DNA of 64,000 nucleotides, from contig NZ_JAPIVT010000004.1 in the NCBI RefSeq assembly GCF_026239735.1, positions 1 to 64,000 on the forward strand. Reading direction: 5' to 3'. This DNA is from Pedobacter sp. MC2016-05 (GTDB lineage: Bacteria > Bacteroidota > Bacteroidia > Sphingobacteriales > Sphingobacteriaceae). Under the pieces are notes generated by a model. It was not told the origin of the DNA, did not search any database, and saw only the letters and a program-made list of their open reading frames with translations. Below are positions 35,115-45,169 of this stretch, one piece after another. Each line of letters begins with the position of its first letter. Position 1 is the stretch's first letter. Position numbers and translations under genes: made by a program.

Positions 35115-35603
35115 TTAACTGGCTACAGACTTTTGCTCAACGTTAAAGTAATCTTTATGTTCTTCAATCAATTTTGCAATTGTCGCAGCTTTAGTATCAG
35201 TAATTTTAAACTCAAATAATGGCTGCTGATTTTTTTTCGATTTAACCATTTTCTCGGTATAGAAGCGATAAACCAAACCATTTGTGAGCAAACCGTATTT
35301 TGCCTTAGTTTTACGAAAATACTTTGATAAACGAGAATCGTGGATATCAAGACTATCCTCATGGTGCTTACATTCCACCAAAATAGTTGGCTCACCATCT
35401 TTCATAATGGTGTAGTCTACTTTCTTACTTTTTTTAACACCAAAATCCAAAACCGCTTCAGATTGAACTTCTGAAGGATCAAATCCTAAAATTTGAATAA
35501 ATGGCATTACCAATGCATTCCTGGTTAAGTCTTCATTTTGAACTTGAGGAAGCATCTTCTTAATTCTTACTGCAAACTGACCGATTTCGTCTTTAAGTTC
35601 CAT
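35115..35603 (-). CDS. Orphan type I restriction HsdR N-terminal-like nuclease domain protein
   Basis: 162-residue protein made of the HsdR-N (HSDR_N_2) domain alone. The PD-(D/E)xK layout is visible: D63 in KKVDYTIM and E77/K79 in ILVECKHH, followed by the helix with DSRLSKYFRKT and the strand YGLLTNGLVYRFY. There is no helicase part and no hsdM or hsdS nearby, so this is not a restriction system as such. Single-domain proteins like this are widespread in Bacteroidota with no known role. It has its own terminator and stands alone. Confidence 0.82.
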   Translation of the reverse strand: MELKDEIGQFAVRIKKMLPQVQNEDLTRNALVMPFIQILGFDPSEVQSEAVLDFGVKKSKKVDYTIMKDGEPTILVECKHHEDSLDIHDSRLSKYFRKTKAKYGLLTNGLVYRFYTEKMVKSKKNQQPLFEFKITDTKAATIAKLIEEHKDYFNVEQKSVAS

Positions 35604-35999: not shown

Positions 36000-36743
36000 A
36001 TGAATCTAAAATGCGTTGTCATCGATGACGAACAACATGCGATTGAGGTACTTACAGACCATATAGCAGAAATGCCTGGACTAACAGTATTCAAGACTTT
36101 TACAAGTCCAGTTCAAGCCTTAACCGAAATTAGCATTGACGACGAGATAGATCTCCTCTTCATGGATATTGATATGCCTGGAATTAATGGCTTAGAACTT
36201 GCCAAAAATATCCGAGAGAAAGCTAAGTATTTAGTTTTCACTACCGCACATCCTGACTATGCTTTACAAGCTTTTGATGTTCAATCAGATCAATATCTAT
36301 TAAAGCCAATTTCATTTGCCAAATTTGCTTTAGGTATTGATAGAATTTTGAAGAAGGAGGCAAATAATGCCAAAGCTACTTCAAAAGATGCCGAACAGGT
36401 GGCGGCGCTTTATATCAAAGGCGACCACAAATATGCTTTTTCCAATATTGCTATTGATGAAATACTTTACATAAAAGCACTTCAGAATTATATTCAAATC
36501 ATTACCAAGGGTGAAACGCACACCACTTACCTTACACTAAAGGAGATTGAAAAAGCTTTAGAGAACCACGCATTTATTAGAGTTAATAAATCGAATATAG
36601 TTGCTAAAGCAGCAATCAAAAAGGTAGATGGAAATATAATCCGTCTTGTAAATAATGAAATGATTCAGATTGGCGAAGGCTACAAAGAAGCTTTCTTCGC
36701 CTACGTACAAAGTAGCTTATTGAAATCAAATAGAAGTCAATAA
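36000..36743 (+). CDS. LytTR-family response regulator
   Basis: 247 residues: a receiver domain (1-120) with acidic residues in VVIDDE, phospho-acceptor D56 in LLFMDIDMPG and K102 in LLKPIS, then a LytTR DNA-binding domain at about 140-240 (IDEILYIKALQNYIQI, LKEIEKALENHAFIRVNKSNIV). LytTR regulators bind direct repeats upstream of targets and usually pair with LytS/AgrC-type kinases; the matching kinase is at 37017-38138. Its stop codon directly abuts the 3' end of the small opposite-strand gene at 36744-36884. Confidence 0.93.
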   Translation: MNLKCVVIDDEQHAIEVLTDHIAEMPGLTVFKTFTSPVQALTEISIDDEIDLLFMDIDMPGINGLELAKNIREKAKYLVFTTAHPDYALQAFDVQSDQYLLKPISFAKFALGIDRILKKEANNAKATSKDAEQVAALYIKGDHKYAFSNIAIDEILYIKALQNYIQIITKGETHTTYLTLKEIEKALENHAFIRVNKSNIVAKAAIKKVDGNIIRLVNNEMIQIGEGYKEAFFAYVQSSLLKSNRSQ

Positions 36744-36884
36744 TTATACTTCAAAAATAAAACTTGTAACAACTGAATGGCTCATATCTCCGGTTGGATT
36801 AGTAGCGTAGTTATTTTTAGCTTTAATGTTTTTATAAACGAACACAGCTTTTTTTGTGATTTTTGAAGTGTTTTGAGTTTTCAT
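36744..36884 (-). CDS. Candidate RiPP or signal-peptide precursor (46 residues)
   Basis: Short ORF read from the sequence. It starts MKTQNTSKITKK, has a basic and aromatic middle (AVFVYKNIKAK), and a C-terminal part with NPTGDMSHSVVTS rich in Thr and Ser, ending FIFEV. It contains no cysteine, no double-glycine leader and no signal peptide. The N-terminal half is Lys-rich (leader-like); the C-terminal half has six Ser/Thr that a LanB enzyme could modify. It lies between a LytTR regulator and its kinase and 1.2 kb from a full-length LanB dehydratase. Codon use and composition differ from random ORFs only subjectively, so a chance ORF is possible. No known precursor family is recognised. Confidence 0.55.
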   Translation of the reverse strand: MKTQNTSKITKKAVFVYKNIKAKNNYATNPTGDMSHSVVTSFIFEV

Positions 36885-37016
36885 AATCTGATAAATTTAA
36901 TTGTTATTATTAATTTCTGTAAAGGTGCAACGTAAATTCATGTTCAACTATTTTTTTACACAAACACATGTTTTTAACAGATAAAAACCCATTTTAAGTA
37001 GATATAACGCTAAAAA

Positions 37017-38138
37017 ATGAACTTAAGAGCATTAAAAAACTTCTATAACATATATCAAATTCACCTTATAATTTGGAGTATTTATATCGTATATGAAGTG
37101 TTTGTGTTAGGACTTATCACTAACAAATTCAGAGAGCCTGGCGCTTATGTCTTAGTATATATAATTAATATAATCACTTTCTACTCCTATGCATATTTAT
37201 TAAAAAACATCTTAAACCGGGATAGTAAGGCGTATCGTTTCATCAAAATATTGGTGCTAATATCAATCATAATTTGTGGATACATTTTCTTAACCTATGC
37301 CTTCATAATATTATTTGAAAAACTCCAGCTACTCGAAGCTAATCCCAGCAGAAGCTTAGATAAGGAGTTCATACTGTCTTGTCTTTATAGATCTCTTTTG
37401 TATATCGGTTTTTCTACTGGTTATGTTTACATTTTAAAATCTTTTGAAGATAGAAAAAAGGTGGAGGCTTTGGAACGTCAAAGTCTCGTTACACAAATAG
37501 AAAAACAGGCTTTAGAGAATGATTTGGTTCAATCGCAAAATAACTTTCTTCGGAGCCAGATCAACCCTCACTTTCTGTTTAATACCTTAAATTTTATATA
37601 CAACGACGCCCGTAAAAAAGCACCAATGGCTGCTGATGCGATCATGAACCTAGCCGAAATGATGCGCTATGCTTTAAAGAGGCCAGAAGCATCGGAAATG
37701 GTTCCATTGAGTGAGGAAGTAGAACAAATTGAACACTTAATCAACCTTCATCAGCTCAGAACAGCAAATGCTATTAATTTAAATTTAGAGGTTAATGGTG
37801 ATTTGTTTGGCTTAAGGTTTCCGCCACTTATCTTATTAACCCTTGTAGAAAATATATTCAAGCATGGCAATGTGACTCACTCCACGCAACCGGCTATCAT
37901 TAAAATTGATTATGAGAACAATAATTTAAACATCAGCACCATTAATATGGTGAATGATAATAAAGGAAAAGAACATGAAAGTCACCACGTTGGTATCGAC
38001 AACATCAATAAAAGGCTAGCCAATTTTTACAAGGATGATTATATTTTCAGATACTACAAAGACCCGTTGAATAGATATATAACGGAAATAGATGTGCAGG
38101 TAATTAATCCGATGTCTAAATTAAACCTCAACCAATAG
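37017..38138 (+). CDS. LytS/YehU-type sensor histidine kinase
   Basis: 373 residues. Four membrane-spanning segments at about 15-35, 43-63, 76-100 and 122-141, then a linker coiled coil and a His_kinase domain with the phospho-acceptor H185 in SQINPHFLFNTLNFI, followed by an HATPase_c region with LVENIFKHG and HHVGIDNINKRL. It is the likely partner of the LytTR regulator at 36000. It reads toward the LanB gene and overlaps its 3' end by 11 bases. There is no large extracellular sensor domain; the signal would be read within or close to the membrane, as for AgrC- or YehU-type kinases. Confidence 0.93.
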   Translation: MNLRALKNFYNIYQIHLIIWSIYIVYEVFVLGLITNKFREPGAYVLVYIINIITFYSYAYLLKNILNRDSKAYRFIKILVLISIIICGYIFLTYAFIILFEKLQLLEANPSRSLDKEFILSCLYRSLLYIGFSTGYVYILKSFEDRKKVEALERQSLVTQIEKQALENDLVQSQNNFLRSQINPHFLFNTLNFIYNDARKKAPMAADAIMNLAEMMRYALKRPEASEMVPLSEEVEQIEHLINLHQLRTANAINLNLEVNGDLFGLRFPPLILLTLVENIFKHGNVTHSTQPAIIKIDYENNNLNISTINMVNDNKGKEHESHHVGIDNINKRLANFYKDDYIFRYYKDPLNRYITEIDVQVINPMSKLNLNQ

Positions 38139-40911
38139 CTCTTCTACGTTGAAGGTCCTTAAGTAAGAAATAATACATTACCATTTCATTCGTCCGTTGA
38201 TCTTTGTTGAACAATCGGTTAACATGCATGTGCATTAGATCAGTAAAGAGTTTTACTTTTCTGTTCCCGTCAGTTAATTTAAGTACGCCGATAAATGATT
38301 GCCTAAAACGGTCGAAATTTTCGTTTTGTTTTGGATCAAAATTTGGCGCAGTTTTATATTGTTGATATTGCTGGTTGAGTTTTTTGAAATCTGTCGCATC
38401 CAAATGATGCTCTTTATTGAATGAATCGGAAATCATTCTTGTTACTTTCAGCATCACTTCAGAATCGAAAACGCCAGCTTTTAACAGTTCATCTACCAAA
38501 TAAGAACACCATTTATACTTGGTAAAAGCATCTGTTTGCTGCTGCAACTGCGATAGAACAAAATCACTATCAATAGAGAAATGATTTTCAACATCCGAAA
38601 TGATTTCTGCTCCATATCTTTCCAACTCTCGCCGGTAGGTTTTTAATTGAAAATCTGAAACCAAACCACTCGCCATATAATCCTTCAGAAGATCGCCTAG
38701 CGCAGAAACCAATGCTTGTCCGTCTTCGTTGTTGTGCAGTAAAATCCTCAAACGCAAATGGTTTCCATTTTCATTGTACCTGATAAAAAACCACGATCTT
38801 ATCTGCGCTGAAAATTGATTTAAGAAAGATGGGATCACCCCAATTAACAATTCATCGGAACGCTGTTGATGGCAATAAATTTCGAAATATAGCCACTCCT
38901 TTCCCGGAAGAAATACCTTTTGAACAGGAATTGCATTATTACTGCTAATTTCTGTTTTTTTGTAAATGCTATTGTTATGATACAGGTTTAAAATAAATTG
39001 ACTTACATAAGGACTTTGCGCCTGATTTACAATAACATCATTTTTGGGCAAGATGACTTCCTCTAAATATAATTTATTCTGCTTTTGGATAAATTGAAGA
39101 AAAGCATTCAAATCCTCATCACTATCTAAACCAAAGCATAAAGTTTGATCTGACAAACCCGCTTTAAAGTACTTGCTTACTCCGATTTGCGTAAGATAAG
39201 AACGACAATCTTCCATAGAGACGGCTGTTTTATTGGGGTAGAAATGTGTTTTGCTTACTCGCCATTTTGCACCGCTTAATACAATATTATGAAACTGAAA
39301 GCGAGGATAAAAGTCCAGATCGGGAAAGATACTATCAAGGGATAGTGATAGGGAAGTTTGCAGACCCTGATGTTGCAAATCGCACAAGAGCCTAAACACC
39401 GACAAATCTGACCGGGTGTAATTATAAGCCGAAGCCATGCGGGGAATAAGCCTTTTATTTAAGCTCTTTGATCTAAGAATGACTTCGTTATTACTCACCG
39501 AAATTTGAATATCACCTAGTGAAAGAGGTGCTGATGATATATCGAAATTCAGTATGGATAACTGGTGCCCGTAAATCTGCTTTCTACGATTGATATTATC
39601 CACATTGGTTTCAACGAGGTAGGCAACATCAAAAAAAAGCACCTCCGGGTTTGCATTTTGCTCAATGGCCGAAGTTTCTACGCAAAACCGTTCTACAGCT
39701 TTATCGGCGATAGAAAAGCGCCCGGTTAAAGCATTTGCCGTTACACCACCAATTTGATCAACACAAATTAAATCATCCGCTAACGACATCAAAAAGCTAA
39801 ATGAGTTTGGCAGAATGCTTTCACTTTCATTTGTTTCAAACGCAAGCTTATTCAAATAAATAGGCTCCTTGTTTTCAAAACCAGCTACAGAAAGTTTGGT
39901 TTTTAATGTTGATTTCAGATCTTGTTTGTCTTCAGCATTCTTTTTCTTCGAATTAAACTGCGCTACAAAATCATCTTCGCTTACCTGCTCCAATTCATCG
40001 TAGCCCACACCCATTTCAGGGTCGAGTGCGATGGAAAGCGGAACTTCCTGCTGATCGAATTTATTCTTGAATCTCGAAATAAAGCTTTTTAGCGCTTCAC
40101 GTTCATCAGATTGCAAGATTTTCGATAAAAGATCGATCAGTGTCGGTATCGGCTTCAATAAACGCTCATCTAAACCGCCAACAATTACTTTTCTTTCTGC
40201 AATTAAATATTTTGGGAGATTGCTGTCATCGATTCCAATTCTTTCGAAATAATCTTCCCCTATCACATTAGGATCGAACTCCGTAAAAAGAAGTTGGATG
40301 GAGTGCATATCCTGAAGCAATTCTAAAAATTCTACCTTACCCGCTTCATCTACACCCAGCGTGTTAATCAAATCATTTACCGCAATCGGTTTGGCACATG
40401 ATTCGAGAATTTGCATTACAGATTCATTTTGATCAATCTCTGCCAGTTCAAAAACCCCTTCCGTGCAGGCAATATACCTGATGCTGTTGATTGTTGAATA
40501 ATAGCTAGTGTTGCTGAACAGCTGAACGTTATCAGCCATCAATTTCTCGAAATCAAAATGAAGTTCATTCCGATATGGCCAATCAATAAACTGATGTACA
40601 ATCTGCTCATTGTTTACAATGATTTTGCTTTCGCTTTCATTAAAGGCATTTGCCAAAAAGCTGAAACTTGCAAATGTGCCATAGGGTGTTGAGCGATATT
40701 TCGCCCGGTTAAAATATTTCCAAACTGTGAAAAAAATCTTTGGCGGCAGGTTTTTCAGTTCATGAGCTTCTACGTCTTTTATGGTTTCGTAAAAGGTAGA
40801 TGATGAAATGGAAATGGCTTTTTTAAGTTCATCCCAACTACTTTCAAGATCAGCTTGATATGAAAATTTCGGCGTTCTGAAAATAATGGAGGGATGAATC
40901 AGGGGTTTCAT
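38128..40911 (-). CDS. LanB-type lantibiotic dehydratase, full length and apparently orphan
   Basis: 927 residues, the size of class I lanthipeptide dehydratases. The N-terminal glutamylation domain has RSTPYGTFASF at 73-83, the family's R-x-T-P-[FY]-G site. The C-terminal elimination domain runs from about 672: WLYFEIYC, the WFFIRYNENGNHLRLR string at about 707-722, YRRELERYG at 759-767 and HMHVNRLF at 894-901. Established family chemistry: Ser/Thr are glutamylated from glutamyl-tRNA and then eliminated to dehydroamino acids. No lanC, peptidase or exporter gene is adjacent. Upstream is a 115-base gap without a clear promoter; an AATCTTTG string on the minus strand lies near 40943. Candidate substrate: the 46-residue ORF at 36744. 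Confidence 0.88.
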   Translation of the reverse strand: MKPLIHPSIIFRTPKFSYQADLESSWDELKKAISISSSTFYETIKDVEAHELKNLPPKIFFTVWKYFNRAKYRSTPYGTFASFSFLANAFNESESKIIVNNEQIVHQFIDWPYRNELHFDFEKLMADNVQLFSNTSYYSTINSIRYIACTEGVFELAEIDQNESVMQILESCAKPIAVNDLINTLGVDEAGKVEFLELLQDMHSIQLLFTEFDPNVIGEDYFERIGIDDSNLPKYLIAERKVIVGGLDERLLKPIPTLIDLLSKILQSDEREALKSFISRFKNKFDQQEVPLSIALDPEMGVGYDELEQVSEDDFVAQFNSKKKNAEDKQDLKSTLKTKLSVAGFENKEPIYLNKLAFETNESESILPNSFSFLMSLADDLICVDQIGGVTANALTGRFSIADKAVERFCVETSAIEQNANPEVLFFDVAYLVETNVDNINRRKQIYGHQLSILNFDISSAPLSLGDIQISVSNNEVILRSKSLNKRLIPRMASAYNYTRSDLSVFRLLCDLQHQGLQTSLSLSLDSIFPDLDFYPRFQFHNIVLSGAKWRVSKTHFYPNKTAVSMEDCRSYLTQIGVSKYFKAGLSDQTLCFGLDSDEDLNAFLQFIQKQNKLYLEEVILPKNDVIVNQAQSPYVSQFILNLYHNNSIYKKTEISSNNAIPVQKVFLPGKEWLYFEIYCHQQRSDELLIGVIPSFLNQFSAQIRSWFFIRYNENGNHLRLRILLHNNEDGQALVSALGDLLKDYMASGLVSDFQLKTYRRELERYGAEIISDVENHFSIDSDFVLSQLQQQTDAFTKYKWCSYLVDELLKAGVFDSEVMLKVTRMISDSFNKEHHLDATDFKKLNQQYQQYKTAPNFDPKQNENFDRFRQSFIGVLKLTDGNRKVKLFTDLMHMHVNRLFNKDQRTNEMVMYYFLLKDLQRRRAIG

Positions 40912-40974
40912 AGAGATATTTTATTGGGCGAAAATTACAAAGATTAATATTAAAACCCACATGGTATATAAAGT

Positions 40975-42595: not shown

Positions 42596-43255
42596 ATGAA
42601 CACTAACGAACTCCTCTCTGAACTCAGGAAGTTTGTACTTATAAAGTCGGGATTAAAAAATATAGATCCTTCTCACTGTAAGCTAATTTCTGAGTATATA
42701 TTTCAAGAAACTAAAAACTATGTTAGTGAAACCACTATCAAAAGGTTTTTTGGCTTCGCAAACACCCAACACAAATTTTCTTTGTTTACTTTGAGCAGCT
42801 TATCACAATACATAGGCTATTCAGACTGGAATACATTCTGTAAGGAAAAAGAAACTCAAGTTTCAGCTGAACAAAGCACCTGGGAAACACTCAAATTAAA
42901 AGCGAAGTATATCAGTGAGATTGCACTGGTTTCAAAGAAAAATAATTCAGGCATTCCATTCGTATACACAGCCAATAGAAGTTTCTATTATCCTGATTTT
43001 GATTATTTTTTAAATAACGATTATCAGTTTACAACTTTGAGTGCTTTGCCCGGCCAAGGTAAATCCATCCTACTGGCACATTTGGTTCACCGCTTTTTTT
43101 ATTCGGAACAAGCATTGTATAAAAATGATATTGTTTTACTGATGAACGTGAATAGTATCAATACGATTCTCCGAGATGGAATAACGCTAAAAGAATGGTT
43201 TTTAAAGGAATTTAAATTTGAAAGCGTTAACGATTTAATCAGTTTTCAAAGTTAA
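42596..43255 (+). CDS. N-terminal fragment ORF of the split NTPase
   Basis: 219-residue ORF as the sequence stands: the helical N-terminal domain, a linker and the Walker A loop GQGKS, ending at the premature stop after NDLISFQS. It lacks Walker B, so by itself it should not hydrolyse ATP. Confidence 0.6.
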   Translation: MNTNELLSELRKFVLIKSGLKNIDPSHCKLISEYIFQETKNYVSETTIKRFFGFANTQHKFSLFTLSSLSQYIGYSDWNTFCKEKETQVSAEQSTWETLKLKAKYISEIALVSKKNNSGIPFVYTANRSFYYPDFDYFLNNDYQFTTLSALPGQGKSILLAHLVHRFFYSEQALYKNDIVLLMNVNSINTILRDGITLKEWFLKEFKFESVNDLISFQS

Positions 43256-43591
43256 TCCAGAAAAAAAAGAGGGCCGGTTTATATTAATCGTTGATGGAAT
43301 TGACGAATTTCTCACCAAGACAGAATATTTACAAACATTTATAGATTTTTTATACAGCATAGAAGAAAACAACTTCCTAAAAATGGTATTTGGTTTACGA
43401 ACCAATAGTTGGATTAATCTGCAACCTGTTATAACAGGCTCGGCTTTTTTAACAAAGAGTTGGTATAATGGCTTGTTTACGATCTTGATGTACTTAGCAA
43501 TGTTCCGCCGCTAAATACCGAAGAGATATTAAATGTATTAAGCCAGCTTGAAGATAAAACGGTTATTCAGGATGAGGTAAGCCCCGCCCTC

Positions 43592-45169
43592 TTGACGCAA
43601 TTTAAAACGCCGTTTTGGCTGCAAGTATATTATCAATTAAAAAAAGATAATCTTGCCCTCGAATTGAATAATACGCTTCTCTGTTATGAGATTATTAACT
43701 TTTTCTTAGAAAAGAAAATCTTTTTAGCGAAAAAAAGTACCGAGAAAATATATCTGTTAAAAAAAATAAGCGGAAGTATATCTAAAGGAAATAAAGGTCT
43801 TCGTGTGGCTAAAGAAGCTATTCTTGACATTGTAAATCAATATCCTGATGCTTATCAAGAACTGTTGTACGATGGTATTCTAATTGAAGAAAAGCGGCTT
43901 AGCACTGCAATACCCACAGAAATTGTTCGCTTTTTGGACGATGATATCTATACCTATTTCATTTTTATTCAAATTACCGAACGCTTTAATTACAAACCAG
44001 GCAAGGATTTTTTTGAATACATCTTAGCAACCTTTCTGCAAGGAACAGTATTAAGATATCACATTTTAAACTGGGCTATTCGCTTCTGTATCAATAGAAA
44101 TGAAATTTCTGAGTTAAAAAACATCCTAAAACTGTCATTTACGAATGAAGAAAAAAACATGTCGTTTGATTTCATTTGCAATGTTTCGAAATATGAGCTT
44201 AGCAAGCCCAACTCAAACTTCAATAAACAAAGTATCGACTTAAATTTTATTGATATTTTGGCTGCAGGCCGAACGATGAGTAAACTTTACAAGGAAACTA
44301 TTAAAACTATTTCGGATAATGTATTAAATGAAGATGTCCAGATCATGCTATTGGTTATCGAATGTAATATCGCCTTAATTGATATCGACAAATCTTCTTT
44401 GATCAGTACAATGCATACACTTAAACGCCATTACAAGAGATTGAGTGAACTATTCCCCATAAATCCGTACGACATCATTTTATATTTCCACAACAACCTG
44501 TTAGGCAAACCACATGAAAGTAAAACACTCGAAGATAAAATTATCAGGCTATGCCAAAAAATTGATGAGAGTGAACCTCTGAGCAACAAATTAATTACTA
44601 CCCCCGAAATTCTGGCCTATCGATTAGTTTTATTGGCTTTATTCGCACAGAAAAATTATGCTGAGTGCCACCGCTTTATTATGGCTATTCTAACTAAATA
44701 TCCTAATATCTTTACTGTACGCCATTCGGTCTTTTCTCCGTTCCTACTATTGCATTTGGGCCATACCTATCTTAAACTTAACTATTATAAGAAGGCTAAA
44801 AGAGTTTTAGAATTTATGGAGAAAGTGATAGAATGCGACTATACTTACTACACCAATTTTATTAGCGTAGGTTTTAGTTTATTCAAGGCGAGCTTTTACA
44901 ACTACACAGACAATTATGAACAAGCAGTTACCGAAATAGAAACAGGGTTGAAAATGGCCTTTAAAAATGATTTTATAATTTACGAAGTTTCATTGCTTCT
45001 GCTAAAAATAGATGTGTTGAAGCATTGCGATAAACCCGAAGAGGTATCAAATGCAATAAAAGAATTATTTAAATTTATATCGATAAACAAAATTTCGATG
45101 CCAGAGTATGCCAACTTGAATAACTTCGAATTCGAACAATCATTTAAGATTTTAAAGTCTTATAAATAA
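43592..45169 (+). CDS. C-terminal fragment ORF of the split NTPase
   Basis: 525-residue ORF as the sequence stands; the frame is actually open from 43469. All-helical, with several TPR-like pairs near the end (HLGHTYLKLNYYKKAKRVLEFME, in part, at about 390-415). There is no start signal before the ATG at 43592, so it is probably not translated alone if the gene is broken. Confidence 0.6.
   Translation: MTQFKTPFWLQVYYQLKKDNLALELNNTLLCYEIINFFLEKKIFLAKKSTEKIYLLKKISGSISKGNKGLRVAKEAILDIVNQYPDAYQELLYDGILIEEKRLSTAIPTEIVRFLDDDIYTYFIFIQITERFNYKPGKDFFEYILATFLQGTVLRYHILNWAIRFCINRNEISELKNILKLSFTNEEKNMSFDFICNVSKYELSKPNSNFNKQSIDLNFIDILAAGRTMSKLYKETIKTISDNVLNEDVQIMLLVIECNIALIDIDKSSLISTMHTLKRHYKRLSELFPINPYDIILYFHNNLLGKPHESKTLEDKIIRLCQKIDESEPLSNKLITTPEILAYRLVLLALFAQKNYAECHRFIMAILTKYPNIFTVRHSVFSPFLLLHLGHTYLKLNYYKKAKRVLEFMEKVIECDYTYYTNFISVGFSLFKASFYNYTDNYEQAVTEIETGLKMAFKNDFIIYEVSLLLLKIDVLKHCDKPEEVSNAIKELFKFISINKISMPEYANLNNFEFEQSFKILKSYK

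Follow-up and report, generated by a model that had tools for sequence, protein, structure and literature searches.

A LanB dehydratase without a cyclase in Pedobacter, and the probable peptide-pheromone system around it

We analyzed a 64,000-nt stretch of the genome of Pedobacter sp. MC2016-05 (contig NZ_JAPIVT010000004.1, positions 1 to 64,000; hereafter the window), in which the gene of a full-length LanB-type dehydratase of 927 aa (38128..40911, minus strand) lies beside those of a histidine kinase, a response regulator and a short peptide. It is probable, in our judgment, that these genes form a pheromone system of the ribosomally synthesized and post-translationally modified peptide (RiPP) kind that dispenses with a cyclase: LanB would make linear dehydro-amino-acid peptides, and the logic of the system would be agr-like. 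With less assurance, we lean toward a wider proposal, that Pedobacter and its relatives maintain a pheromone network of several channels. Its single LanB, as shared gatekeeper, would introduce dehydro-amino acids into several Cys-free peptides encoded at scattered modules with private receptors, and agr-like recombination would swap peptide together with sensor. This would constitute a new RiPP class, of linear dehydro-amino-acid pheromones from a full-length LanB, arranged as hub and satellites.

Both halves of the enzyme are intact, as a sequence-only reading of this DNA had suggested on the strength of short motifs. The open reading frame (ORF) begins with ATG and has 0 internal stops. Pfam detected Lant_dehydr_N (5.4e-57) and Lant_dehydr_C (2.4e-56; PF04738 and PF14028), which, with an AlphaFold model (pLDDT 86.3), account for both the glutamylation and the elimination domain. 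The best PDB matches of the model, MadB, NisB and MibB, span its full length, and phmmer relates the protein to NisB (4wd9, 6m7y) at 7e-19. The motifs lie at residues 73-80 (RSTPYGTF), 707-712 (WFFIRY), 764-767 (ERYG) and 894-900 (HMHVNRL). Residues R69, R73, R720, R722, E762, R765 and H894 align to NisB chain positions 83, 87, 784, 786, 823, 826 and 961, which we take to be catalytic, and all seven are invariant across 32 aligned LanBs that are 27 to 95% identical to the window protein. The loss of catalytic residues that had been named as grounds for abandoning the claim was looked for in this alignment and not found, and the modeled fold is NisB-like.

The neighbors of LanB had been described as nothing but a two-component system and envelope proteins. 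This description fails, for the two regulatory genes have a precursor gene between them (36744..36884, minus strand). It encodes a Cys-free peptide of 46 aa, MKTQNTSKITKKAVFVYKNIKAKNNYATNPTGDMSHSVVTSFIFEV, with a conserved leader and a variable Ser/Thr-rich tail; it is divergent from the kinase gene, and its stop codon abuts that of the regulator gene. The peptide matched neither a Pfam nor an NCBIfam model. A small ORF is present in the regulator-kinase gap of every locus of a 34-locus synteny set, often in tandem copies. The LanB loci studied are a selection of the matches: 64 were added to a first set (24 orthologs and 36 others; then mostly ~1000-aa LanBs), and a further 20 followed. The orthologous set comprises 56 loci with LanBs at least 52% identical to that of the window, the window included; L064 (a LanB fragment) is excluded from its statistics, and L060 (Mucilaginibacter, 37%) is grouped with the other genera. 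Homologues of the precursor occur in 56/56 of these loci beside the kinase and LytTR regulator, with up to 7 copies per locus and 139 in all, of which 135 are Cys-free and 4 (from 2 loci) contain Cys. The 29-residue core carries a mean of 7.6 Ser/Thr over the 56 loci, and the diversity of the leader by codon position (0.185, 0.102, 0.288) fits a coding gene.

The genome assembly of the strain (5.57 Mb, 58 contigs, 99.97% complete) contains no match to LANC_like, none to Peptidase_C39, and neither a further LanB nor a stand-alone elimination domain, leaving the window LanB as the sole one. The absence of LanC, noted earlier from the window, thus extends to the whole genome, as do the absence of a C39 peptidase that a transporter could carry and that of a second LanB; a LanC or C39 peptidase acting in trans is ruled out for this genome. 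We also searched for a standard lan cluster that could supply LanC in trans, the finding that would have told against the earlier reading, and found none. Nor does such a cluster adjoin the orthologs: LanC lies within 6 kb of LanB at 1 of 133 loci (56 orthologous, plus 36, 21 and 20 others), and a LanB-LanC pair in genome G067 is separate from the system described here. A LANC_like protein is present in 28/56 ortholog genomes and absent from 28/56. The pair in G067 (L172, 11493-15883; LanB of 1032 aa) sits beside htpG, ~6 kb from the cyclase-free system, and standard and cyclase-free LanBs coexist within that one genome. Judged by these features, the window LanB is an intact class I dehydratase kept without a cyclase. 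Because the precursors lack Cys (all 4 in the strain's own genome have none) and the genome lacks LanC, the product likely ends as a linear peptide at the dehydro-amino-acid stage, which had been one of two readings offered before. The other, that trans-acting partners are encoded elsewhere, survives in part: partners exist, and they consist of additional modules of peptide, kinase and regulator rather than of a cyclase.

The kinase gene (37017..38138, plus strand; 373 aa, LytS-type, PF06580) overlaps the 3’ end of the LanB gene with its own 3’ end by 11 bp, and the regulator gene (36000..36743, plus strand; 247 aa) encodes Response_reg and LytTR DNA-binding domains. Comparison of loci divides the kinase into a hypervariable membrane sensor (residues 1-145) and a conserved kinase part. 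In the structural model (pLDDT 80.5, pTM 0.45), four long helices start within residues 3-140, ahead of the kinase part. GanS ranked top and AgrC third among PDB matches; as these entries are kinase-domain structures, the sensor fold itself has no PDB match. Kinase and regulator are conserved beside LanB throughout the 34 synteny loci, whereas the genes on the other side vary. Both genes are found no more than 3.5 kb from LanB in 56/56 ortholog loci, 34/36 loci of other ~930-aa LanBs of Pedobacter, 20/21 loci in other genera and 18/20 loci of ~1000-aa LanBs. A comparison of synteny across relatives, suggested with the earlier reading, thus finds LanB constantly paired with kinase, regulator and precursor, and this gene order indicates that the two-component system belongs with the peptide and is no bystander. 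Over the ortholog loci the regulator is mostly 93-100% conserved, against 52-95% for LanB; such conservation would not be expected of a regulator with a narrow, local task and hints at a wider role.

Peptide and sensor vary together. Against Pedobacter sp. Leaf41 (L033), a hypervariable island of ~0.7 kb (36726..37440, right edge approximate) covers the peptide gene, its promoter and the sensor half of the kinase at 48-77% DNA identity, between flanks that are mostly 92-99% identical. The regulator and kinase half of the two strains are 100% identical and their LanBs 95%, compared with 42% for the sensor half and 50% for the peptide tail. Over the 56 loci, tail and sensor distances correlate with r 0.82, and the partial correlation given kinase half, regulator and LanB is 0.73, a value reached by 0 of 2000 permutations; the corresponding partial correlations are 0.18 for leader and sensor, 0.02 for tail and kinase, and 0.016 for tail and LanB. 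Thinning to 43, 29 and 17 loci left the tail-sensor correlation at 0.74, 0.75 and 0.69. Among 180 (non-independent) locus pairs with LanBs at least 80% identical, the 137 with sensors <70% identical had a mean tail identity of 0.47, and the other 43, with similar sensors, 0.89. Tandem copies within a locus share their tails (identity 0.88 in 31 loci, versus 0.34 between loci).

Three satellite precursors were found by peptide profile elsewhere in the strain's genome (C21:47849-47998, minus strand; C22:6456-6623 and C17:387-554, plus strand). Each is Cys-free and flanked by a LytTR-type regulator and a LytS-type kinase without LanB, the C17 kinase being truncated by the contig end. Nine satellite loci from other Pedobacter genomes, picked from peptide-profile matches for lying away from LanB, had the same regulator-peptide-kinase arrangement without LanB in 9/9 cases. 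The leader is common to the unlinked modules, window and satellites alike; given this similarity and a single LanB in the genome, this one enzyme probably handles all four precursors, acting in trans. In the 145 Pedobacter genomes compared, the peptide was matched in 95 and LanB in 115: both in 94, peptide only in 1, LanB only in 21 and neither in 29. The peptide therefore accompanies 94/115 LanB genomes and 1/30 of those without LanB (Fisher 6e-16, uncorrected for relatedness). LANC_like is absent from 54 of the 95 peptide genomes.

The region upstream of the peptide gene holds an operator-like direct repeat with a 21-bp period (36972..37003, minus strand). LytTR regulators bind direct repeats of about 21-bp spacing. 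The pattern ATC[TA]-N17-ATC[TA] occurs upstream of the peptide gene in 40/56 loci, against 0.9 expected in base shuffles, and the extended element has one match in the strain's genome at up to 3 mismatches. Because of this single occurrence, the repeat looks like a switch for the peptide gene and not a broad regulon, and a wider regulon acting through it was set aside. Upstream of LanB, TAATCTTTG (40938..40946, minus strand) is presumably a Bacteroidetes-type -7 promoter-like element, by its likeness to the consensus; it differs from the peptide promoter.

From these parts, their conservation, the co-variation of peptide and sensor, the satellites and the dependence on LanB across the genus, we infer dehydration, export, sensing and autoinduction as follows. 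LanB would bind the precursor encoded at 36744-36884 through its conserved leader and, in a glutamyl-tRNA-dependent reaction, convert Ser and Thr of the tail to dehydroalanine and dehydrobutyrine (Dha/Dhb). Since neither Cys nor LanC is present, the product would remain linear, to be trimmed and exported by functions encoded elsewhere. Once the membrane part of the cognate kinase had sensed the peptide, the kinase would activate the LytTR regulator, whose action at the direct repeat ahead of the peptide gene would close an autoinduction loop. The three further peptide-kinase-regulator modules would share the same LanB.

Several observations weigh against this model. The locus holds no exporter or leader protease, nor did one come to light elsewhere, where no further search was made. 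The peptide occurs in one genome that has no LanB, G101 (80% complete), and LanB occurs without a peptide match in 21 genomes, although the latter may hold precursors too divergent for the profile, as candidate peptides seen beside the kinase at other loci suggest. The partial correlation of tail and LanB rises after thinning, to 0.30 at 29 loci and 0.25 at 17, so LanB may itself adapt to the tail. Peptide and sensor are adjacent, and part of their co-variation may be linkage; as the full cause, linkage is disfavored because the conserved leader lies between tail and sensor. Finally, the operator is a candidate proposed from its repeat, and the shuffles behind its expected count preserved base composition only.

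The same genes could instead make peptides that are mainly bacteriocins, autoinduced by way of the kinase like nisin by way of NisRK, with signaling secondary. LanB products are best known as lantibiotics, and rapid variation of the tails and loci with as many as 7 copies would suit such a use. However, no immunity gene, exporter or protease is common to the loci of the synteny set, each of the four modules has its own kinase and regulator, and tandem copies carry one tail per locus, which fits a single receptor better than an arsenal; we consider a primary bacteriocin role unlikely. The chemistry might also differ from that proposed, if LanB did not eliminate and left glutamyl esters, or ligated an amino acid in the manner of PEARLs, with that product as the active form. 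Pathways without LanC or Cys are known for short LanBs (PMC11002830, in the portion available to us), but here the elimination domain is present and the residues aligned to NisB 784, 786, 823, 826 and 961 are invariant in the 32 LanBs, and we find this improbable.

A class I lanthipeptide could still arise if LanC or another cyclase acted in trans, a prospect to which the LANC_like proteins of 28/56 ortholog genomes and the LanB-LanC pair ~6 kb off at L172 lend some color. It is contradicted by the lack of LANC_like in the strain's own genome and in the other 28, by the 135/139 precursors that are Cys-free and by the single LanC within 6 kb of 133 LanBs, and we give it next to no credence. Only a little less doubtful is the notion that the peptide is no LanB substrate and works with the kinase as a small partner inside the cell or in the membrane, with LanB linked for other reasons. 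Modules of peptide, kinase and regulator do occur without an adjoining LanB, but the peptide is found in 1/30 LanB-free genomes, its tails are Ser/Thr-rich and its leader is common to unlinked modules, which leaves the idea very improbable.

By analogy, the proposed pheromone system works like agr (AgrBDCA) without being a member. In both, the peptide gene adjoins those of a multi-pass membrane kinase and a LytTR regulator, the likeness extending to the third rank of AgrC for the kinase model. In both, peptide and sensor half co-vary within a hypervariable island while the kinase half and regulator are conserved, and the same co-swap defines the agr groups (the agr side as given in the accessible part of PMC10482373). 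Unlike agr, LanB here replaces thiolactone formation by AgrB, the peptide offers no Cys for a thiolactone, the kinase is of PF06580, the peptide gene is divergent from it, satellites share one enzyme and the host is Gram-negative. No AgrB-like gene was found among the cassette neighbors, and no genome-wide AgrB search was made.

With the nisin system (NisABTCIPRKFEG), the window shares a full-length LanB that is presumably tRNA-dependent, adopts the same fold and has invariant active-site residues; it differs in having no LanC, no Cys, and no dedicated exporter, protease or immunity gene at the locus. Lantibiotic autoinduction runs through a two-component system, and the nisin kinase and regulator belong to families other than those of the window. 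The kinase of the nisin system is NisK (excerpt of PMC5266694). The pearlin systems with their PEARLs (short LanBs) resemble the present one in having a LanB relative, no cyclase and a Cys-free precursor (PMC11002830, in part), although PEARLs lack an elimination domain, and the window LanB has an intact one together with a kinase and regulator. The Bacteroidetes class I lanthipeptides (LxLxKx5L leaders, pinensins) share phylum and LanB, and the Lys-rich leader here resembles LxLxKx5L by eye (motif from the section of PMC7268733 seen). Those clusters, however, were found through LanC, bear Cys and often have GG leaders with a C39 peptidase, neither of which occurs here.

The large survey that reported many Bacteroidetes clusters was LanC-seeded (same section of PMC7268733), so it could not list cyclase-free LanB loci. 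Searches of open-licence PMC papers brought up none whose title or opening of the abstract reports a LanB together with a Cys-free peptide, a kinase and a regulator. In the literature covered we met no LanC-less, Cys-less pathway for a full-length LanB; such pathways are known for short LanBs lacking the elimination domain (PMC11002830, as far as available). The earlier suggestion of a logic different from that of known class I lanthipeptides is borne out in that LanC and precursor Cys were both tested and neither was found, and on this sequence evidence we do not assign the system to that class.

If the proposal is correct, a large Gram-negative family would gain a communication system based on ribosomal peptides, of a kind new for the group; intact LanB genes lacking LanC would be accounted for; and dehydro-amino acids would have a use beyond that of ring precursors. 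Genome mining that is seeded by LanC or requires Cys would miss such loci by design. Through the natural swaps of peptide and receptor, cognate and non-cognate combinations already exist for direct testing.

The peptide profile (E <= 0.05) also matched in 31/36 loci of other ~930-aa LanBs (L090-L125), 15/21 loci in other genera (L060 and L131-L150) and 2/20 loci of ~1000-aa LanBs (L151-L170), and additional candidate peptides beside the kinase were judged by eye alone. At L090-L092, L101, L103, L105, L131-L133, L141, L144 and L150, the regulator adjoins LanB with the kinase beyond it, and the candidate peptides carry one or two Cys close to their C-terminal end; a ring or some other modification of Cys may therefore form at these loci, including those in genomes free of LANC_like (such as G029, G012 and G138). 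At L151-L168, the ~1000-aa LanBs likewise have a kinase and a regulator as neighbors, together with short Thr-rich ORFs that are divergent from the kinase; most of these ORFs are Cys-free, and many have TSTHIF or a similar ending. Such loci appear to form a second branch of this type of system.

Among the neighboring genes of the window, 35115-35603 encodes a 162-aa protein with an HsdR N-terminal domain only, which stands beside the cassette in 33/34 loci. Consecutive ORFs of 219 and 525 aa at 42596-45169 are possibly a broken gene, a single 859-aa ORF occupying the matching place in Pedobacter chinensis (L035). Small ORFs also occur in the stretch that separates LanB from the OmpA-like gene.

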